The notes under the pieces were generated by a model. It was not told the origin of the DNA, did no database searches, and saw only the letters and a program-made list of their open reading frames with translations. A stretch of 64,000 bases of DNA from Fibrobacter succinogenes (GTDB lineage: Bacteria; Fibrobacterota; Fibrobacteria; Fibrobacterales; Fibrobacteraceae). Position 1 is the first letter of the stretch; every line of letters begins with the position of its first letter. The stretch spans positions 1-64,000 of the forward strand of contig CACWJY010000001.1 in assembly GCA_902761355.1 (NCBI GenBank). Reading direction: 5' to 3'. Made by a program: the position numbers and the translations under genes. This document shows, piece after piece, positions 3,507 to 51,838 of this stretch.

Positions 3507-6500
3507 TGATTTTTCTCCTTCTTTGTAGATTGTGGTTGTATACCTTCGCACTTACCAATTCCGAGTAGACAGGGGTTCCAGAAACGGTAAATATAGTCAA
3601 TACCGATGTTCTTTTCCATTCGGGCTTCGTTGTTGGTTTCTGTACCGGTGTTGGCAAGGTACTGCTTAGAAATAAGCATCGCGTTAAGGGCCAAAGTCGG
3701 TGAAATATGGTTGCGGTGCGAATATTCGGCTTCCTGGAATACGGGAAGCGTATAGTTTATGCCGAATTGTAGTGATTGGTCGTAGGTGGGGTTTTCGCTT
3801 TGATCCTGCGTGTAGCCAAAGATCAGGCTTAGGTTTTTGACCCAGCGGTCAAGCGAAACGGGTACCTTAAAGTAACTGGAATCCTTGTCGCTAGTGGTGT
3901 TGTTTTCAAACAGCATCACCTTCATATCGATATCGCCAATATAGTCTCCGCCAAGAGTCTTGTTTGCTGTCGTGGAAATCACTTTGCCAATAGCCTTTCC
4001 TGCGAGCTTATTCCAGTCAGTTTGTTCTCCGTTGTCGTCTGCTATACAGCCAAGAAGAACGTTGTAATAAATGACGGCCGGTGTCGATTCGGTACCGCAG
4101 TTAGAGGAAGGAATCGGTTGCGGATTGGTAATGGTTCCTTGAATGTCTAGATTGATGGGACAAGTTTCTTTTTCTTTTTCGTTTGTTTCGCTACAGAACG
4201 GCAGTTCCTGACTACTAGAAACATCGACTACGCCATGCTGCCAAGGAACATCGTTCCAGCTAATCAAGAATGAGTTTAGGTTGAATTCATAGATGTCCTT
4301 GACGCCGATAAATCCGTTGTTAGTATTAGAAACGTCTCCTCGCAATAGCGGACGAGTCGTATTGCCTAAAACCCAAAGATCGACCGTTAGGGGGAATGTG
4401 GCGAATGGTGTGACAATGGCGATGGAATCGACCTGAGTGTCACTGATATGCATCGATAGATTGATTGGGCTTGCCGAAGAAAGCTTGGCTTCTTGGACTT
4501 CTTTGCTGCGTAAATTAGCAACGGCATTGTTGAACATTGTCAGATACTTGTCTAAGGCGGTGGGTGTCACGTCAATGTCGAAATCTCGATAGAACACGAG
4601 TTTGTCTATCATTATGTCGCCATTAATGGTATTGTTGGTGATAATGCCCTCATGCCCGTGAGGAATGCTAAAGCCGAAGTTCCCTCTCATCAATGCTTCG
4701 GCATGGCCATTGATATCGCTATTGTATTTGTATGCAATGCGGGGAACCGTTGCCCAGATAAACAGGTCTTCTTCGCGATCTTCAAGATGACCGTTGATGT
4801 TTTCGAGAATAAGTTCGTGATCGCCCCTTCGAATAGAGTAGCGCTTGGAGTGAATGTCAACGGCATCTAGTTTCATGCTATCGAGTAGGAATTTTACCGT
4901 TGCCGAAATGACTTCGTTACTGTCGTTTTGAGTCTTCGCTTCGTAAATATCGACCAAACCGTTTTCGACATGGCCCCTTAAGTAAATGGGGAATTGCATC
5001 TGTGTCTTCGGTGGCTGGTATTGTGTCGAATCGAGGCTGATGTCGGCGGTGATACCCTTAAGGCCTTTGCGAATATCGACGTCCATGTCGACATGCAAAT
5101 CGGTGTTCTTGATTTCACTGACTGTTCCTGGAATAAACCAAGAACCGTTGGCGTCCAGAGTTCCCTTGAACATCAGGTCGTTGTCGATAAATCCGCTTGC
5201 CCAGACAGTGCCGCCGTTGTCGCTACCATGTGAGAAACTGACATGCCGCTTGTCGCTAAAGATGTTGTCGATGATAATCTGGGTGTTTCCGGTCCATCCG
5301 CCACCACCGATGTCTAGGTAGGAGTTGAGCTCGACTTTGCTCTTTTCTGCAAAGATGTTTAACTTGCGAATGTTGAAAAGGGTGGGTGAAATTTTTCTGA
5401 AATGAATGTCGTAGAAATCTAGGTTGCCGACAAGTCCGTTTTCTTGACTATAAGAAAGGTCACCGTTAAGCATGCCCGAGGTTAAGGTAGAGTCGTTTAA
5501 CGGCTCTAGCAGCAGGGGAATGCTGAATTCCTTTGAAGAAATGTTGACGTTCAATAGTTGTATCGGTAAGAAGTTGGTCGGCTTAAAGTCCGGGTTAGAA
5601 TCGTTCGGCAAGATGAAGACTCCGTCTGCCTTTACGGTGTTTCTGTTCTGTGCCGCATCAAAGTTGTCAATAAAAATAGTGTCTCCGTTTTGGCGCACGG
5701 CAACGTTCACGTTTACACTGAATGCGTCGAGATTACTTTCGACTGAAACATCGGCCTTTCCGATGTTGTTGGTAAAGTCCTGATACCATTTGCCGGTGAC
5801 TTCGCCGTCGATCTTGAATCCCAAATCTATGTCAGAAAACGGAATGGTGGAGAATAGGACCTTGTCCGCATTTACGTCAAGAGAAATTGTGTCTCCGATG
5901 GTAATGTAGGCGCTGGCCTTTCCGCCGTTACGTTGTGTCACATTCCATGAGGTGTGGGGATCTTCTGTTCCCCATTTAACATCACCATCAAAATCAAAGG
6001 TCTCTTTTGGCCCATAAATAATACCGTTCGAAAAATCGATACCCTTTTTGTCGATATCCAACGTGACTTGCATGGAGTCTGCGGCGATATGGTATGCATT
6101 CAGAATGGTTCCGAATTTTGTCTGGATTCGCACCTTGCCGTTTTCAAAGACTCCGTAGACTTGTGGTCTGCATCCAAGCGACAGGTTTCCGTGAGTCCAG
6201 TCCAGAGCCCATGGTTCGACGGGTGAAATATCTCCGGTGAAGGTCAATAAAAGCGAATCGCGTAAATTGATGACGGCGTCGACATTGGATCCTTGCCTTG
6301 TTTCGGCAGAAACAACGATTTTCTGATCATAGAATTCTGCTGATTTAATCTGCATGTCTAGAGGCATCATCTGCGGACCGAACATGGCGCTCATGTGGCT
6401 TACGTAGCCTTCTAGATAGCCGCTCATGTCTTTGTCGAAATAGCCGCTTAGGTGAATACTTCCGCCTTCGTCATTCTGCAACAGCAGGTTTATGTCGGCA

Positions 6501-7387
6501 CGTTCCTGGTCGCCATCTAAATGCAAGGTGACGTTTTCGGGGAGCAGTGGCCAGAATTCCCCCACCCTTGTTTTGACCGTCGCCTTGTAATTCAATTGTC
6601 CCTTTTGCAGGTTGCCAGAAATGTCTGCTGATACATCCAGTTTTCCTAGGGCGGGGACTGAAGGGGGGAGCTCCGCCGGAATCCACTTCTTGGGATTGTC
6701 TATGGTTAGTTTGGTTTTCCCCTTAAAGTTGGTGAGGTTTTCTTTGGGAAGGTCGGCGTTTATTTGTACCGAGTCGCTTGCGGTCTTGATTTTGCCGTTA
6801 ATTTTGAGTTTGTCATCGTTGAAGTCTGTGCTTAGCTGAACGGATGTCTTGCTTGGGATATAGTCCCCTTCGATACTCTTAATCGATAGGTTGGCCGCTT
6901 TCTTTTCAGGGTTGTAAAGGCTTAGGCCTTTAATGTTCCATTGCCGACCGTCCGAAAGTCTGATGTCGGCCTGCTTGAGGTCGAGACGAACCGTGACCGG
7001 AATCTTTAGGTTTTCGGGGAATTGGGGGGCCGCCTTGTTGGACTCCTGGGCTTTAGCCTTGTTTTCGGGAATGTTGATGTTTGCATCCAACTTTTGGATA
7101 TCTAGTTTGACCCCTCTTTCTGTTCCAAGGAGAGTTATATCTAGGTTCGGGTCCGTGATGGTAAATTCGGAACCGTTTGCCGAAACGCGTAACGAGTCAA
7201 AATGGTGTGTTAATAGGGATTCCATGGAATGCCCATAGGGCGTTATGGTAACCCCAGCAAAGGTATGTGGAGTCGATAAAAAGCGTTCTAAGAGTGCATG
7301 CGCAAACCAGACGCCAAGGGCGATGGCGCCAACAACAGCCGTGGCAACGACGGCTGTTCCGACAAATGTCGTAGGTTTTTTAATCAA
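3503..7387 (-). CDS. tamB: TamB-like translocation/assembly protein (DUF490)
   Basis: A 1294-residue protein with one N-terminal membrane segment (about residues 8-30, rich in A, V and G) and a very long repetitive beta-rich body typical of TamB and AsmA-like bridge proteins. The C-terminal part, ending about 1285, resembles the DUF490/TamB domain. Such proteins are anchored in the inner membrane, span the periplasm and act with an Omp85 partner. Here the partner gene overlaps by ATGA, which supports the assignment. The likely start is TTG at 7387; no ATG or good Shine-Dalgarno sequence is near, and the hydrophobic anchor begins right after it. A 22-bp palindrome lies 25 nt upstream. E. coli TamB is similar in length (1259 residues). 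Confidence 0.85.
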   Translation of the reverse strand: MIKKPTTFVGTAVVATAVVGAIALGVWFAHALLERFLSTPHTFAGVTITPYGHSMESLLTHHFDSLRVSANGSEFTITDPNLDITLLGTERGVKLDIQKLDANINIPENKAKAQESNKAAPQFPENLKIPVTVRLDLKQADIRLSDGRQWNIKGLSLYNPEKKAANLSIKSIEGDYIPSKTSVQLSTDFNDDKLKINGKIKTASDSVQINADLPKENLTNFKGKTKLTIDNPKKWIPAELPPSVPALGKLDVSADISGNLQKGQLNYKATVKTRVGEFWPLLPENVTLHLDGDQERADINLLLQNDEGGSIHLSGYFDKDMSGYLEGYVSHMSAMFGPQMMPLDMQIKSAEFYDQKIVVSAETRQGSNVDAVINLRDSLLLTFTGDISPVEPWALDWTHGNLSLGCRPQVYGVFENGKVRIQTKFGTILNAYHIAADSMQVTLDIDKKGIDFSNGIIYGPKETFDFDGDVKWGTEDPHTSWNVTQRNGGKASAYITIGDTISLDVNADKVLFSTIPFSDIDLGFKIDGEVTGKWYQDFTNNIGKADVSVESNLDAFSVNVNVAVRQNGDTIFIDNFDAAQNRNTVKADGVFILPNDSNPDFKPTNFLPIQLLNVNISSKEFSIPLLLEPLNDSTLTSGMLNGDLSYSQENGLVGNLDFYDIHFRKISPTLFNIRKLNIFAEKSKVELNSYLDIGGGGWTGNTQIIIDNIFSDKRHVSFSHGSDNGGTVWASGFIDNDLMFKGTLDANGSWFIPGTVSEIKNTDLHVDMDVDIRKGLKGITADISLDSTQYQPPKTQMQFPIYLRGHVENGLVDIYEAKTQNDSNEVISATVKFLLDSMKLDAVDIHSKRYSIRRGDHELILENINGHLEDREEDLFIWATVPRIAYKYNSDINGHAEALMRGNFGFSIPHGHEGIITNNTINGDIMIDKLVFYRDFDIDVTPTALDKYLTMFNNAVANLRSKEVQEAKLSSASPINLSMHISDTQVDSIAIVTPFATFPLTVDLWVLGNTTRPLLRGDVSNTNNGFIGVKDIYEFNLNSFLISWNDVPWQHGVVDVSSSQELPFCSETNEKEKETCPINLDIQGTITNPQPIPSSNCGTESTPAVIYYNVLLGCIADDNGEQTDWNKLAGKAIGKVISTTANKTLGGDYIGDIDMKVMLFENNTTSDKDSSYFKVPVSLDRWVKNLSLIFGYTQDQSENPTYDQSLQFGINYTLPVFQEAEYSHRNHISPTLALNAMLISKQYLANTGTETNNEARMEKNIGIDYIYRFWNPCLLGIGKCEGIQPQSTKKEKNQ

Positions 7388-17987: not shown

Positions 17988-18977
17988 ATGTTTCCGAATA
18001 TTCCTGAATTTTGTTTTATTGATAAACTGCTTAAAGATTCTGCCGAATTTAGGCACGATGTCCCAAAACAACGAGACTGGCTCGGCGTGGGCGATGACTG
18101 CGCCATATTCGATGGCTGGCTCGTGACCAAGGATCTTTCGGTCGAAAATACGCATTTTAGACTTGATTGGTCTACTCCGGAACAGGCTGTAGAAAAGCAC
18201 ATTGTTTCAAATGTTTCTGACATTTCTGCGATGGGTGGAGTCCCAAAGATTGCTTTGCTTGGTCTGTGCCTGAACAAGAACTGGTCTTTAGAAACCCGTA
18301 ACCGTGTGCAGGTTGCGTTTTCGCAGGGCTTTGCGAAGCGTGGCATAGCGTTGATTGGTGGAGATACCGTAGTAGGCGATGTGGGGATGTTTTCGACCAC
18401 CCTTTTGGGACATCTGGCGGGAGATAGACCGCTTTTGCGCTCCGCTGTACAACCGGGTGATAACTTGTATGTAAACGGAACCCTGGGAAAGTCGGGGGCT
18501 GGGCTTTGGCTGCTGATGAATCACCCTGAAGCGGTGGCTGAATTCCCCAAGTTGGTGGAATACCACCTTAATCCTCGAATAGCCGAGGGGGCTGGCGCTG
18601 AACTTGCTCGGCAGGGGGCGTATGGGGCCTGTATGGATATTAGCGACGGGCTTTCGTCGGAGTTGAATCATCTTGCCGTTGCGTCGGGGGTGACGCTGCA
18701 GATAGAAAAGGATTTATTGCCGATTGACCCAGATGTTCTTCGCCTGAGTGATAGATATCACCTTGATCCTCTTGATTTTGCGTTGAACGGGGGGGAAGAA
18801 TATGAACTCCTATTTGCAAATTCAACTTCAAATAGTATATTTGAAAAAAGTAAAGGTTTAGGTGAGGTGTGTAGAATCGGTTCTGCTTTGGAAAGGTCCA
18901 AGGCGCCCGATGTTCGCATGCGGAACCAGAATGGAGAATTTTTGCCCGTTCAACCGCGGGCGTGGTCGCATATATGA
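17988..18977 (+). CDS. thiL: Thiamine-monophosphate kinase
   Basis: 329 residues. ThiL phosphorylates thiamine monophosphate to the diphosphate cofactor with ATP. Family motifs in order: GVGDDCAIF (metal/ATP site), KDLSVENTHF, NVSDISAMGG, IGGDTVVG, MDISDGLSSELNHL and GGEEYELLF near the C-terminus. Length is typical (about 325). The ATG at 17988 lacks a clear Shine-Dalgarno sequence; upstream is a long A/T-rich region. Its TGA overlaps the ATG of pilB (ATGA), so the pilus motor gene is translationally coupled to a cofactor gene, a chance operon rather than a shared pathway. Confidence 0.93.
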   Translation: MFPNIPEFCFIDKLLKDSAEFRHDVPKQRDWLGVGDDCAIFDGWLVTKDLSVENTHFRLDWSTPEQAVEKHIVSNVSDISAMGGVPKIALLGLCLNKNWSLETRNRVQVAFSQGFAKRGIALIGGDTVVGDVGMFSTTLLGHLAGDRPLLRSAVQPGDNLYVNGTLGKSGAGLWLLMNHPEAVAEFPKLVEYHLNPRIAEGAGAELARQGAYGACMDISDGLSSELNHLAVASGVTLQIEKDLLPIDPDVLRLSDRYHLDPLDFALNGGEEYELLFANSTSNSIFEKSKGLGEVCRIGSALERSKAPDVRMRNQNGEFLPVQPRAWSHI

Positions 18978-20908
18978 TGAACAACAACAAGATGAACCTT
19001 GGCCAGTTGCTGCTTCGTCAGGGAGTCCTCGACGAAGACCAGTTGGCCCATGCCATGGCCGAACATAAACGTACCGGCCTCATGTTGAGTAAGATCCTGG
19101 TGCGTTTGGGTATGGTGAGCGAAGAAACGCTCACGAATATCCTTGGTTCGCAGATGCAGTCGTCGACCAAGATGCGTATCGGCGAAATGCTCCTTGCTCA
19201 AGGTTACATTACACAAGAACAGCTGGATAAGGCTCTAGAAACCCAGAAAACTTCTGGTAAGCGTCTAGGCCGCACGTTGGTGGACTTGGGTTACATGCCC
19301 GAAGAGCGCCTTATCGAAATTCTTTCGAGACAGTTCGAAGTCCCTTACGTCAAGCTGGATAACTTCAATATTGACCCGAACGCCTATACCTACTTGCCCG
19401 AAGACATGTGTAAGCAGTACAAGGTGGTCCCCTTGTTCGTGCAGAAGGGAGAAGACGAACGTCGTCAGATCCGCTCGGTTTTGACGATTGCCATGACCGA
19501 CCCGACCAACATGCGTACCATTAGCGTGGTCAAGTTCAAGGTCCGTATGGATGTCGAAGTCGTGATGGCCTCTGACGCCGATGTGGCGAAGGCCATTGAA
19601 CGTGTATTTGCCGGTCACGGTCCTACCGAAGAATCCCTTGCCGAACTTATCAGTGAATCTAAGGACGGCGAAGAACTAGAAACCGTGGAACGCGGTCAGG
19701 GCGGCAACGACGAACCCGAACTGAGTGACGAAGAAGGCCGTCAGGTGGTTAAGATCGTGACCACGCTGATTCACGAAGCTATTGCCCGTAAGGCTTCCGA
19801 TATTCACCTGGAACCGCAAGAAACCTTCCTCAAGCTGCGTTACCGTATTGACGGTGACCTGCAGGTGATGTCTCCGATTCCGGCACGTTTGATGCCGCAG
19901 ATTCTTTCGCGTATTAAGCTCCTGTCTAAGATGGATATTGCCGAAAAACGTAAACCGTTGGACGGCCGCTTTACCGTGCGTTACAAAGGTTCCGAAGTGG
20001 ACCTTCGTGTGAGCTCGTTCCCGATTTCGCTCCGTAAGCGTGGTGTTTGCGAAAAGATCGTTATGCGTATCTTAAACCCGAACTCCGGTCAGTTCCCGCT
20101 CAAGGACATGGGCTTTGACCCGCGCGTGCTCAAGCAGTTTATTGATGCGATTAATGCTCCTAACGGTATTGTGCTGGTGACCGGTCCTACCGGTTCCGGT
20201 AAGTCAACCACGCTTTATGCTTCTATTCGAGAAATTTTGGATTCCACCATCAACATCTCTACGATGGAAGACCCGGTGGAATTGAATATTGACGGTGTGA
20301 ACCAAGGACAGATCAACAACGCCGCAGGCTTTACCTTTGCGGCGGGCATCCGCGCCCTGCTGCGTCAGGACCCGGATGTGATTATGATCGGTGAAATGCG
20401 TGACCAGGAAACTTCGTCCATGGCTATCGAAGCGGCTTTGACGGGTCACTTGGTCTTTAGTACGTTGCATACAAACGATGCTGCTGGTGCATTCCCGCGT
20501 TTGCTCGAAATGGGCCTGGAACCGTTCCTTGTGTCTACCGCTATCAAGGGCGTGCTTGCTCAGCGTCTTGTGCGCCGCATCTGTAAGTACTGTAAGGAAC
20601 CTGTCGAAATTTCGCAGGCCATGCGCGACGAGTTCCACCTGACGCCCGATATGCAGTTCTACCATGGCAAGGGTTGCGACAAGTGCGATGGTTCGGGCTA
20701 CAAGGGCCGTTGCGGTATCTACGAATTCCTGGTGCCGAACGAAACCGTGCGTAACCTCATCATCAAGCGTTCTTCGGGTGACGTCATCAAGCGTGCCGCC
20801 ATTCAGGAATGCGGCATGATTACGCTGCGTATGGATGGCATCCAGAAGGCTCTCGATGGTCATACGACTCTCGAACAGGCTATTGGTGCCTCTACGGCAG
20901 ACGACTAA
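18974..20908 (+). CDS. pilB: Type IV pilus assembly ATPase PilB (GspE family)
   Basis: 644 residues. The extension motor of type IV pili is a cytoplasmic hexameric ATPase. The N-terminal part holds two related MshEN-like repeats (LGQLLLRQGVLDEDQL and IGEMLLAQGYITQEQL), then a linker, then the ATPase: Walker A GPTGSGKST about 403-411, Asp box near EDPVEL, Walker B VIMIGEMRD, and HTND in the His box. Zinc-binding cysteine pairs CKYC and CDKC follow, as in PilB/GspE. The start at 18974 overlaps the thiL stop codon (ATGA); a GTG 12 nt upstream is less likely. A terminator overlaps its stop codon. GspE of a type II system is the alternative, but pilM, pilN and pilT in the window favour PilB. Confidence 0.92.
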   Translation: MMNNNKMNLGQLLLRQGVLDEDQLAHAMAEHKRTGLMLSKILVRLGMVSEETLTNILGSQMQSSTKMRIGEMLLAQGYITQEQLDKALETQKTSGKRLGRTLVDLGYMPEERLIEILSRQFEVPYVKLDNFNIDPNAYTYLPEDMCKQYKVVPLFVQKGEDERRQIRSVLTIAMTDPTNMRTISVVKFKVRMDVEVVMASDADVAKAIERVFAGHGPTEESLAELISESKDGEELETVERGQGGNDEPELSDEEGRQVVKIVTTLIHEAIARKASDIHLEPQETFLKLRYRIDGDLQVMSPIPARLMPQILSRIKLLSKMDIAEKRKPLDGRFTVRYKGSEVDLRVSSFPISLRKRGVCEKIVMRILNPNSGQFPLKDMGFDPRVLKQFIDAINAPNGIVLVTGPTGSGKSTTLYASIREILDSTINISTMEDPVELNIDGVNQGQINNAAGFTFAAGIRALLRQDPDVIMIGEMRDQETSSMAIEAALTGHLVFSTLHTNDAAGAFPRLLEMGLEPFLVSTAIKGVLAQRLVRRICKYCKEPVEISQAMRDEFHLTPDMQFYHGKGCDKCDGSGYKGRCGIYEFLVPNETVRNLIIKRSSGDVIKRAAIQECGMITLRMDGIQKALDGHTTLEQAIGASTADD

Positions 20909-47729: not shown

Positions 47730-47975
47730 ATGTTCGATACTACTCTTTTGAATATTTTGTGCTGCCCCGAAACGAGGGGTAAACTCCAGTTGGCGTCTGA
47801 TGAAACTCTCGCCAAGGTGAATAGTGCCATTTCTGCCGGTACAGCCAAGAACGCTGCTGGCGAAAAAGTGACTGAACCTTTGACCGAGGCTTTAACGACC
47901 GAAGATGGGTCTAGGGTGTATCCGGTTCGCGAAGGGATTCCGGTCCTTTTGGCGGACGAGGCAATTTTGCTCTAA
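47730..47975 (+). CDS. Trm112/YcaR-like small zinc-ribbon protein
   Basis: 81 residues. NILCCPETRGKL at the N-terminus and the ending VYPVREGIPVLLADEA are the UPF0434/Trm112-like signature. Trm112 partners activate methyltransferases; the role of bacterial YcaR-like proteins is unclear. A 35-residue insert rich in Ala and Glu separates the halves. TAAGG lies upstream of the ATG at 47730. It ends 9 nt before the FimV-like gene. Confidence 0.85.
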   Translation: MFDTTLLNILCCPETRGKLQLASDETLAKVNSAISAGTAKNAAGEKVTEPLTEALTTEDGSRVYPVREGIPVLLADEAILL

Positions 47976-47984
47976 GAGGTGTTT

Positions 47985-50726
47985 ATGGCGGTGACGTTAG
48001 AATCACTAAGGAAGTCTATCAAAAAAAATGCAAATTCAATGGCATTTGCATGGCTTGCTGATCTTGAGCGTGAAGCTGGAGATCTGGATAAGGCTTTGCA
48101 GAGGGTTGATGGTGGACTGACTCTTTACCCGAACGATATTGCGGCACGGCTCGTCCGTTCCAAGATTCTGTTCCAGCAAGAAGCCTTTGAACCCTGTGTT
48201 CAGGAATGCGAACGAATTTTGGTAATCGATCCGTTCAACTTGGCTGCCCAGAGGATTATGGGCGATGCCTACGACAAGTTGGGCGACGAAGGTGCGCGCA
48301 ACCGTTGTTACCGCCGTCTACACGATATGGATCCGTTGAATACCTTCTGGAAAGAAGAGTATGATGTCGTTATTGATGCGGCTGTTGCCGCCTCGACGGC
48401 TGCGGCCATGTCTGACGAGTTTACGCTGAGTGGCGATGACTTCTCGCTGAGTCAGATGGATCAGCCTTCTGATGATTCTTTGACGATGGGTGCGGAACCT
48501 GTAGAAAATGAATCGACACAGGAAGCTCCCGAAGAGAATGCTTTTGATGTTCCTGATTCTGAATCTGTCGATGTTCCTGTGGATGCGGATGACCCGTTTG
48601 CATCTTTGGCCGCGATGTTGCCGAACAGCGATGCTGCTGATGATTCGGCTGTAGAAGACTTGTCTGCATCGCTTGATTCTGTGATGGATTCCATCAGCAC
48701 CGAATTGTCCGCTGATTCTGCAATGGAAGAATTCCCTGCCGATGAAAATATCTCGAGTAGCGATGTTGGCTCGGCTCTGTCTGACATGTTCGGTCTAGAC
48801 GATGATCTTGAACCGGAAGCTGAACCTAATGCTCAAGCAGGAATCTCGGCGCCGTTGGCCTCCGACATTCCGGCAAGCATCGATGAAGCTGCCGAAGAAA
48901 ATGCGGCTAATATTTTTGAAACCGCTGCTGAAGATAAACCGCAGAGTGTGGACAGCGCCTTTGATTCCATCTTTGGCGAAGATGAACTCCCCGAAGAAAA
49001 ACCGCAGGAATCTTCTCCGCTTTCTAGCGAAGGCGAACCGGAACTGCCGGTTGAAGAGGGTGGCCTGTTCGAAAAGTCTGCCGATGCCGACATGAAACTT
49101 GCCGATTCTACGGAATCCGTAGAAGAGTGGAGCCCTGCATCGACCCCTGCTATTGAAGAACCTGCATCTGAAGCTGCTGCAGAAGATGCTCCGACGACCA
49201 TTGACAACGCCTTCGACTCCATCTTTGGTGAAGACGAACTCCCCGAAGAAAAGCCGCAAGAAGAAACTCTCGACATTTCTGATGAGCCGACTCTTGATGC
49301 TGCACCGGAGGTTGCTTCTGATGCTGAATCGTCTGAGTTGTCTGGCGAAGATGAACTTGAACTGCCGGTAGAAGAAGGAGGCCTGTTTGAAAAGTCTGCC
49401 GATGCCGACATGAAGCTTGCTGATTCTACGGAATCTGTAGAAGAATGGAGTCCTGCTCCGCAGCCTGCTGCTGAAGAAACACCCGCTCTCGAAGAAGTTA
49501 CTGCTCCCGAAGAACCGGCACTAGAGTCTCCTGTTGATGCTACTACCGCCGACGCATCGACAACTATTGACAATGCTTTTGACTCCATCTTTGGTGAAGA
49601 CGAACTCCCCGAAGAAAAGCCGCAAGAAGAATCTCTCGACGTTTCTGCCGAGCCGGCTCTTGACGCTGCTCCGGAGGTTTCCGCTGAGACCGACTTGTCT
49701 GATTTGCCGATGGATGACAGTCTTGAACTGCCTGCCGATGAAGGTGGTCTGTTCGAAAAGTCTGCCGAGGCTACGCCGGAACAGGCTGAAGCCCCCGCAG
49801 AAGAAAGTCTTGAATTGCCGGCTGACCTTGAAGCTTCTGAAATCGAAACCGAAAAGACTGAAAGCCTTGAGCCTGCGGCAAAGGACTTTAGCGTAGACAG
49901 CGCTTTTGATTCGCTCTTTGGTGCCGATGACGATCTTCCCGAAGAAAAGCCTCAGCAGGCCTCCGAAGAAATTCAGGAACCTGTTCAAGAAGAAAATGTT
50001 TCTCTTGCGGAACAGGTTGACCAGGCCGAATCAGAACTTGAAATGCCTGAGGTAAAACAGGATACGTCTGACCTTGCCCAAGAAATGGGTGGCGCTTTTG
50101 CCTCCATGTTTGGCAATGATGATGATGACTTGGATTTGCCCGAAGCTAAGAGTGATGAAGTTCCCGCTGCAGATGATCAAGAAGTGACGGGCGCTCCTAT
50201 TGAAGAAAGCCTTGGCAGTGCAAACGAAAGCTTGTCTGAAGAATTGGATGATTCTTTTGATAATTTGTTTGGAAAAGAGGATGCCGTAGTCGAAGACTCT
50301 AAGCCTCAGAATGCTGAGACCGTCGAGGCTCCTGCTGTTGAAACTTCTCAGGATTTGGATTCGCTCGAATCGGAAGTTTCGGGTGCATTCAAGGGCCTTT
50401 TCGACATGGATGACGATTCTTTAACCGAAGAGTCGAAACCTTCGAATAAGGGCGTTGATTTTTTGATGTCCGGTGATTCTGACGATGAAATTTCGTCGGG
50501 ACTTATCAGTAATCCTGACGCTCCTTTGGATCGTGGGGCCCATAACTTAGACGAAAGTTTAAATACCCGTACCTTGGCAGAAATTTATTTTGACCAAGGA
50601 TTGTATGGCAAGGCTCTTGAAATCTACAAGGATCTGGTGCAGAAAGAACCTGAAAACGAAGAGATTGCTGCTCGTATGGCTGAAGTCGAAAAGATCTATA
50701 AAGATAAGTTCGGAGGTGAAGCATAA
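47985..50726 (+). CDS. FimV-like acidic TPR scaffold protein coupled to pilT
   Basis: 913 residues, cytoplasmic (no signal). Residues 1-130 are TPR-like (FAWLADLEREAGDLDKALQRV, IAARLVRSKILFQQEAFEPC). Residues 140-840 are a long, very acidic, low-complexity region with repeats of the form AFDSIFGEDELPEEKPQE (three near-perfect, several diverged) and LPVEEGGLFEKSADAD (three). Residues 855-905 are a C-terminal TPR (TLAEIYFDQGLYGKALEIYKDL). The layout of an acidic middle plus a C-terminal TPR resembles FimV, the polar hub for type IV pili. Its TAA overlaps the pilT ATG (TAATG). It lacks the FimV LysM and membrane segment, so this is an analogy, not proven homology. AGAGGTG precedes ATG 47985. Confidence 0.75.
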   Translation: MAVTLESLRKSIKKNANSMAFAWLADLEREAGDLDKALQRVDGGLTLYPNDIAARLVRSKILFQQEAFEPCVQECERILVIDPFNLAAQRIMGDAYDKLGDEGARNRCYRRLHDMDPLNTFWKEEYDVVIDAAVAASTAAAMSDEFTLSGDDFSLSQMDQPSDDSLTMGAEPVENESTQEAPEENAFDVPDSESVDVPVDADDPFASLAAMLPNSDAADDSAVEDLSASLDSVMDSISTELSADSAMEEFPADENISSSDVGSALSDMFGLDDDLEPEAEPNAQAGISAPLASDIPASIDEAAEENAANIFETAAEDKPQSVDSAFDSIFGEDELPEEKPQESSPLSSEGEPELPVEEGGLFEKSADADMKLADSTESVEEWSPASTPAIEEPASEAAAEDAPTTIDNAFDSIFGEDELPEEKPQEETLDISDEPTLDAAPEVASDAESSELSGEDELELPVEEGGLFEKSADADMKLADSTESVEEWSPAPQPAAEETPALEEVTAPEEPALESPVDATTADASTTIDNAFDSIFGEDELPEEKPQEESLDVSAEPALDAAPEVSAETDLSDLPMDDSLELPADEGGLFEKSAEATPEQAEAPAEESLELPADLEASEIETEKTESLEPAAKDFSVDSAFDSLFGADDDLPEEKPQQASEEIQEPVQEENVSLAEQVDQAESELEMPEVKQDTSDLAQEMGGAFASMFGNDDDDLDLPEAKSDEVPAADDQEVTGAPIEESLGSANESLSEELDDSFDNLFGKEDAVVEDSKPQNAETVEAPAVETSQDLDSLESEVSGAFKGLFDMDDDSLTEESKPSNKGVDFLMSGDSDDEISSGLISNPDAPLDRGAHNLDESLNTRTLAEIYFDQGLYGKALEIYKDLVQKEPENEEIAARMAEVEKIYKDKFGGEA
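48946..49790 (+). repeat. Internal tandem coding repeats in the FimV-like gene
   Basis: A block coding AFDSIFGEDELPEEKPQE occurs near 48955, 49208 and 49573, with a diverged copy near 49900. A second block coding LPVEEGGLFEKSADAD occurs near 49040, 49360 and 49730. Copies are nearly identical at DNA level, so copy number could change by slippage or recombination. Confidence 0.85.
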
Positions 50727-51838
50727 TGGCAGAACAGCAGCCGCAACTTCGTATTGAAAAGTTGCTTCGTGAAATGGTGAATCGTGGTGCCTCTGACTTG
50801 CACTTGCGCGTGGGCGTTCCGCCGGTTTACCGTATTAATGGTGCTTTGCAGCGTCCGTTTGATGTAAGGATTGATTCCTTGATGATGGATTCCTTCTTGG
50901 ATGATATCATGAATCGCGATCAAAAGCAACGCTTTGAAGCCAACAAGGAGTGTGACTTTGCCGTGGGTGCCCGTGACATGGGACGTTTCCGTGTGAACGT
51001 TTTCCGTCAGCGCGGTTCTATCGCAGTTGTGATTCGTCACATTAAGGCAAAGATTCCCGCATTCGAAGATTTGCACCTTCCCGAAGTGATTCGCGACATG
51101 TCTCTGACCAAGCGCGGGCTCGTGCTTGTTACGGGTACGACTGGTTCGGGTAAGTCGACGACGCTTGCCGCCATGCTCGATTACATCAATCAGAACGAAG
51201 CCGTGAACATCATTACGGTCGAAGACCCGATTGAATACCTTTACCGTGATGACAAGGCGATTATTTCACAACGTGAAATTGGTGTCGATACCCTTTCTTA
51301 TGCGAACGCATTGCGTGCGGCGCTCCGTCAGGACCCGGATGTGCTTTTGGTGGGCGAAATTCGTGACCTAGAAACGATGCAGATTGCTTTGACGGCCGCC
51401 GATACGGGTCACATGGTGTTTGCGACGATCCATACCACGAACGCCACCGAGACGATTCACCGTGTACTTTCGATGTATCCGCCGCATCAGCATGACGAAA
51501 TCCGCTTGTTGCTCTCTGAAGTGCTTGCTGGTATTATTTCGCTTCGTCTTTTGCCGACCAAGGATGGTAACGGACGTGTTCCTGCAGCCGAAATCCTGGT
51601 GAATACAGCCGCTATCAAGGAATATATCGAAGACAAGGACAAGAATGACTTGATCGAACAGGCGATTGCTGAAGGCCACATGCAGTACCGCAGCCAGACC
51701 TTCGACCAGGCCCTCCTTAAGCTCTACGAAGAAGAAAAGATTTCTCTTGAAACGGCAATGAACGCTGCCACGAACCCCGATGACTTCGATCTTAAGATTC
51801 GCGGTATTTCGGGTACATCCGAACGCAGCTGGATGTAG
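50726..51838 (+). CDS. pilT: Type IV pilus retraction ATPase PilT
   Basis: 370 residues. The motor that depolymerises pili for twitching, adhesion and DNA uptake. It opens with EKLLREMVNRGASDLHLRVG; Walker A GTTGSGKST about 138-146, Asp box EDPIEYL, Walker B DVLLVGEIRD, His box ATIHTTNATETIHRVL. AIREGRT-type C-terminal sequence is replaced by VNTAAIKEYIEDKDKN, in the position used by PilT. Its start overlaps the stop of the FimV-like gene, so the two are translationally coupled. A strong bidirectional terminator follows. PilU is the alternative paralogue. Confidence 0.95.
   Translation: MAEQQPQLRIEKLLREMVNRGASDLHLRVGVPPVYRINGALQRPFDVRIDSLMMDSFLDDIMNRDQKQRFEANKECDFAVGARDMGRFRVNVFRQRGSIAVVIRHIKAKIPAFEDLHLPEVIRDMSLTKRGLVLVTGTTGSGKSTTLAAMLDYINQNEAVNIITVEDPIEYLYRDDKAIISQREIGVDTLSYANALRAALRQDPDVLLVGEIRDLETMQIALTAADTGHMVFATIHTTNATETIHRVLSMYPPHQHDEIRLLLSEVLAGIISLRLLPTKDGNGRVPAAEILVNTAAIKEYIEDKDKNDLIEQAIAEGHMQYRSQTFDQALLKLYEEEKISLETAMNAATNPDDFDLKIRGISGTSERSWM

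Follow-up and report, generated by a model that had tools for sequence, protein, structure and literature searches.

The window, i.e. the whole stretch of 64,000 nucleotides of Fibrobacter succinogenes DNA that was analysed, carries on its + strand a gene of 913 amino acids plus stop (47985–50726), the product of which, hereafter called the scaffold after its putative role, is composed of two TPR regions separated by an acidic linker predicted to be disordered. It is followed by pilT (50726–51838, + strand, 370 aa), whose product scores well above the cut-off of the PilT/PilU profile TIGR01420 (456.6 bits versus 319.1) and is assigned to the type IV pilus retraction ATPases. The last A of the scaffold stop codon (TAA, 50724–50726) doubles as the first base of the pilT ATG, so that the TAATG stop/start overlap described in an earlier note on this DNA (50724–50728, + strand) is confirmed by the sequence. 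Directly upstream of the scaffold gene, a Trm112-like gene of 81 aa (47730–47975, + strand; Pfam Trm112p, E 1.8e-9) is a conserved neighbour in the class, its position matching in relatives. Start codons were assigned mechanically. Elsewhere in the window, a PilB/GspE-type ATPase of 648 aa (18962–20908) is encoded outside the pilT cluster, some 29 kb upstream of it. Another PilT-like ATPase, with 46% identity, is encoded directly before a pilC-like gene (L105:7311-8378 and 6105-7307, on G000:C16); this second locus has no TPR scaffold of the family of the 913-aa protein.

The composition of the scaffold is extremely acidic, with 250 D+E against 46 K+R, a computed net charge of about -204 at pH 7 and a pI of 4.05; in residues 141–850, D/E account for 30% and K/R for 2.8%. 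No membrane helix is expected, since the highest Kyte-Doolittle mean over 19 residues is only 1.14, and no LysM domain was matched in Pfam at E<=1. Pfam TPR_14/TPR_19 matched both ends of the protein. In the AlphaFold2 model, built with 43 homologues as input, residues 4–118 and 862–909 are confident and residues 143–857 are of low confidence. The N-terminal TPR domain (residues 4–118, 47994–48338, + strand) is modelled as three TPR hairpins with pLDDT mostly >90 and aligns to TPR solenoids with a VIA-align Z of about 16; this fold comparison returned generic TPR solenoids only and names no partner. The linker (residues 143–857, 48411–50555, + strand) has pLDDT mostly <50, and the C-terminal TPR with its capping helix (residues 862–909, 50568–50711, + strand; Pfam TPR_14, pLDDT about 95) is, in the family alignment, the best-conserved part of the protein. 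These data agree with the earlier description of an acidic protein of 913 residues with TPRs at both ends and neither LysM nor membrane helix, and the predicted order at both ends and disorder between them support the cytoplasmic scaffold architecture that had been proposed.

The linker is built on a repeated short motif. A block of 18 residues, AFDSIFGEDELPEEKPQE, is present in three exact copies, and the pattern F..[ILM]F occurs seven times in the scaffold, six of them in the tested linker stretch where 0.13 would be expected after shuffling, well beyond chance. Repeats are also visible within the gene at the DNA level, up to 237 nt at 80% identity, indicating that part of the motif array grew by duplication. 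The AFDSIFG block represents one variant of a 13-residue helix motif, [ST]GxD[VI]xxx[LF]xx[LIM]FG or, written more loosely, [ST]G-x-D-[VI]-xxx-[LFIA]-xx-[LIM]-F-[GEDN], which reads SVDSAFDSIFG in Fibrobacter and TGDDVENRLDELFG or SGQDVEDRLDSLFG in other classes, F-x-x-x-F being the Fibrobacter form of this wider motif. The putative docking motif copies, all on the + strand, are copy 1, SSDVGSALSDMFG (48756–48818, profile E 7.4e-6); copy 2, SVDSAFDSIFGEDELPEEK (48939–49001, 4.9e-8); copies 3 and 4, both TIDNAFDSIFGEDELPEEK (49194–49253, 6.1e-7, and 49560–49619, 3.6e-7); copy 5, SVDSAFDSLFGADDDLPEE (49887–49946, 5.8e-6); copy 6, EMGGAFASMFGNDDDD (50076–50135, 2.8e-5); copy 7, ELDDSFDNLFGKED (50235–50294, 9.1e-4); and copy 8, EVSGAFKGLFDMDDD (50367–50429, 2.1e-4). 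When the own genome was searched with the profile, these eight copies were recovered in the scaffold and none elsewhere at E<=10, a result that shows uniqueness and not discovery, since the profile was built partly from the same copies. With a motif matrix trained each time without the tested group (leave-one-group-out), most full-length proteins of f1 (except g10), f2, f3-g5, f4, f8, f10 and f12 carry 3–15 copies per protein versus about 0.05 in shuffled linkers.

To follow the linkage reported in the earlier note, pilT neighbours were read in relatives. The scaffold gene lies within one gene of pilT in all 92 loci of the phylum with an assembled upstream gene, without exception, and the conserved link to pilT is therefore upheld, the outcome that the earlier note had named as refuting (differing pilT neighbours in relatives) having failed to appear; in three further loci ending at or near a contig edge, no TPR gene is visible. 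Three arrangements were found: direct adjacency in the order Fibrobacterales (f1 and f2, 54 loci), accB in between in f3-g5, f4 and f5 (9 loci, in the order accA-Trm112-TPR-accB-pilT-accC), and pepP in between in f7–f10, f12 and f13 (29 loci). As read from these gene orders, the pairing of the scaffold gene with pilT is ancient and phylum-wide. Of the 54 loci with direct adjacency, only 11, all in one family, show the exact TAATG-type overlap, and the fine coupling of the two genes is therefore recent. The translational coupling claimed earlier is a derived state of the Fibrobacterales. In this order accB and accC left the locus while scaffold and pilT stayed together, and no canonical BCCP (AccB) was found above cut-off in the tested genomes (own genome G000 as a whole; region G000:C3:98904-99182). 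AccB is present beside the TPR gene in the other tested genomes of the class Fibrobacteria. Genomes without a PilT orthologue (G040, and G027, G029 and G031 of g3) retain the TPR gene beside accB-accC; in g3, where no match to PilT or to any ATPase of the PilT family was found, the protein is shortened to 229–293 aa and has neither the long linker nor the motif.

Outside the phylum, candidate members of the family were sought by scanning for the C-terminal TPR. As this TPR is close to consensus, orthology rests on shared architecture and synteny, and gene neighbourhood alone could mislead because the family is also found beside accB-accC in lineages devoid of pilT. The order pepP-efp-accB-pilT-accC with a TPR gene was observed in TA06 (L235) and Zixibacteria (L294), and a similar order with aroQ replacing pepP in Gemmatimonadota (L248). 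The order (pilNOPQ)-aroK-aroB-TPR-mglC-aroQ-pepP-accB-accC, whole or in parts, was found in Desulfobacterota (L236, L241, L252, L265, L289, L290) and Acidobacteriota (L243, L293); mglC is beside the TPR gene in 8 loci of these two phyla, and pilQ in some. In L236 the gene following the TPR gene was identified as mglC, its product matching the M. xanthus MglC of known structure (PDB 7ct3, E 1.3e-21), and the remaining mglC genes were assigned by tblastn with this MglC. The TPR family precedes accB-accC in Desulfobacterota, Acidobacteriota, Gemmatimonadota and Latescibacterota. In several phyla, one TPR protein family travels together with genes for pili and for Mgl polarity. The present gene orders point to an older mixed cluster, and the direct scaffold-pilT coupling looks derived, the family sitting in acc/mgl/pilQ clusters in other phyla. 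A late insertion of pilT into an acc cluster was also considered and dropped, given TPR-pepP-pilT in other classes and pepP-efp-accB-pilT-accC in TA06 and Zixibacteria. In five Myxococcota loci (L302–L306) mglC precedes accB-accC, with aroQ in some, showing that the mglC-acc linkage is widespread even without the TPR gene; no TPR gene of the scaffold family lies near mglC there, and a synteny between sgmX and mglC was not confirmed in these loci.

Type IV pilus genes are already known throughout the Fibrobacteres (PMC4704652), in which group 1 MglA was also listed earlier (PMC4316618). The Ras-like GTPase MglA, a polarity switch protein, is genuine in Fibrobacterota (E 5e-73 to MglA in the PDB) and was found in 137 of 167 genomes of the phylum, including the own genome (G000:C43, E 2.3e-125 to a Fibrobacter MglA). 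The Pfam family PF00025 was abandoned as a probe, its matches at 1e-5 being mixed with other GTPases, and was replaced by a Fibrobacter MglA sequence. A Roadblock (MglB-like) gene adjoins mglA in both genomes checked by Pfam.

The distribution of MglA was then set against that of the motif. In genus g10, MglA is absent from 12 of 12 genomes at E<=1e-25 and from the nine retested at E<=0.001; these nine keep pilM, and pilT is kept in the ten genomes with a locus read, where all ten scaffolds have both TPR ends and no motif. In g3, MglA and PilT are both absent and the scaffold has no linker. Conversely, f5 and f9 possess MglA and PilT with no motif or at most one copy, and in three genomes, all drafts that are 68–92% complete, the motif is present and MglA was undetected. 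Single-genome absences are weak since many assemblies are drafts, the group-wide absences of g10 and g3 being stronger. At the genome level, full-length proteins gave 61 cases with motif and MglA, 3 with motif only, 4 with MglA only and 13 with neither, counts that are inflated by relatedness. The clade count (7, 0, 2 and 4, respectively; Fisher p 0.02, rising to 0.045 when the partial f7 locus is left out) is the fairer, modest test, with clades that were defined manually once the data had been inspected. In these distributions the motif tracks MglA better than PilT, f5 and f9 breaking the rule. Since g10 keeps PilT and PilM and has neither MglA nor motif, MglA, or a protein that depends on it, is a stronger candidate for the partner than PilT. 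The suggestion that the F-rich repeats look like docking sites is accordingly retained for the motif array itself and not for a specificity towards PilT, which g10 contradicts.

Among known proteins, the closest parallel examined is SgmX of Myxococcus xanthus (MXAN_5766), a cytoplasmic protein of 1,060 aa with TPRs at both ends that acts as an effector of MglA-GTP and is required for PilB at the poles (PMC7519303). The two proteins share a cytoplasmic nature (predicted for the scaffold), a size of about 1,000 aa, TPRs at both ends without a membrane helix, a type IV pilus function (putative for the scaffold) and the presence of MglA in the same organism. SgmX is moreover four locus tags from mglC (MXAN_5770), the gene that lies beside the scaffold family in Desulfobacterota and Acidobacteriota. 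In contrast, one group describes 14 TPRs along the whole length of SgmX (PMC7668184), versus about three plus one in the scaffold, where residues 143–857 are predicted to be disordered, and the long acidic linker of repeated motifs belongs to the scaffold only. SgmX binds MglA via its C-terminal TPRs and not via linker motifs (PMC7668184); Bd2492, a TPR protein of Bdellovibrio, also binds MglA (PMC3983030). The scaffold had been called FimV-like, and it resembles FimV/HubP by its long acidic cytoplasmic region, its repeats (for HubP), its C-terminal TPR and the type IV pilus role known in Pseudomonas. Membership of that family is rejected: an N-terminal TPR domain stands where FimV/HubP has its periplasmic LysM, there is no membrane helix, and no FimV profile in NCBIfam matched the protein, C-terminal TPR included, at E<=1. 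The pilotins PilF/PilW/Tgl likewise contain TPRs and serve the type IV pilus, and are small outer-membrane lipoproteins; with their profile TIGR02521 the scaffold reached 11.3 bits versus a cut-off of 154. The motif string is what distinguishes the scaffold from the known TPR hubs of pili and polarity, and no open-access paper was found with a title or abstract describing the scaffold or its motif.

By analogy with SgmX, we propose, giving this proposal an even chance, that the protein is a multivalent cytoplasmic scaffold which places or regulates the type IV pilus machine under the control of MglA. The folded TPR domains modelled at its ends would bind parts of the pilus machine or a polar anchor, and the acidic linker would form a flexible string of 3–15 near-identical short helices to which one partner would dock in several copies; co-occurrence makes MglA, or another protein of the MglA pathway, the likeliest candidate. 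Being in one operon with PilT could keep the scaffold and the retraction motor in step. The comparison among classes and phyla suggests that this direct pairing arose in Fibrobacterales through the loss of genes between scaffold and pilT in the older cluster. A bolder version, which we regard as unlikely, is that the repeated helix is a dedicated MglA docking site; up to 15 putative GTPase sites would then be carried on a disordered acidic string, which would turn the switching of polarity into the assembly of pilus motors at a given place, and the whole phylum would possess a hitherto undescribed system for attaching to surfaces. The organisation of pili for attachment to plant fibres is poorly understood in the cellulose-degrading Fibrobacter and its relatives. 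The question becomes testable here, with a single-copy protein encoded beside pilT, a repeated peptide that is well delimited and only a few candidate partners (MglA, MglB, PilT).

Several hypotheses compete with this SgmX-like role. The motif array could dock PilT or another pilus ATPase directly, concentrating retraction motors at the pilus bases; the pairing conserved in 92 of 92 assembled loci and the missing linker of the pilT-less g3 lineage speak for it, but g10, f5 and f9 keep PilT with no or almost no motif, and we hold it to be improbable. There is a similarly small chance that the pairing is passive, the protein being a housekeeping TPR protein of the pepP-efp-accB-accC cluster (fatty-acid synthesis, translation) brought beside pilT by the loss of intervening genes. 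The position of the family upstream of accB-accC in four other phyla and in pilT-less Fibrobacterota, together with accB or pepP intervening in other classes, would be explained in this way; it fits poorly with a linker that vanishes along with PilT and MglA in g3, with the recurrence of mglC and pilQ beside the TPR gene in other phyla, and with scaffold and pilT remaining joined in Fibrobacterales as the acc genes departed.

TPR grooves often bind short peptides, and the motif is unique to the scaffold within its own genome, which would suit linker motifs binding the TPRs of the scaffold itself, in cis or between molecules, so that the protein would condense by self-association or act as an auto-inhibited hub. 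Such self-binding seems very unlikely: AlphaFold docks no motif confidently, the motif regions being mostly of pLDDT <50, and g10 keeps both TPR ends yet has no motif.

The MglA proteins of Fibrobacterota have features of their own. They bear a disordered-looking C-terminal tail of about 100–550 residues (G000:C43:3851-4447; L163, L197-L214), in which no copy of the scaffold motif was found. Outside Fibrobacterales this tail is in many cases rich in proline, with a basic and amphipathic segment at its end, e.g. KGFFDGLFKKEK or KGLMSKLFNKD, that looks like a basic equivalent of the acidic motif in the scaffold. In several families (L200, L202, L207, L208, L214; Pfam on L200 only), mglA is preceded by a DUF4388 (PatA N-terminal-like) gene.
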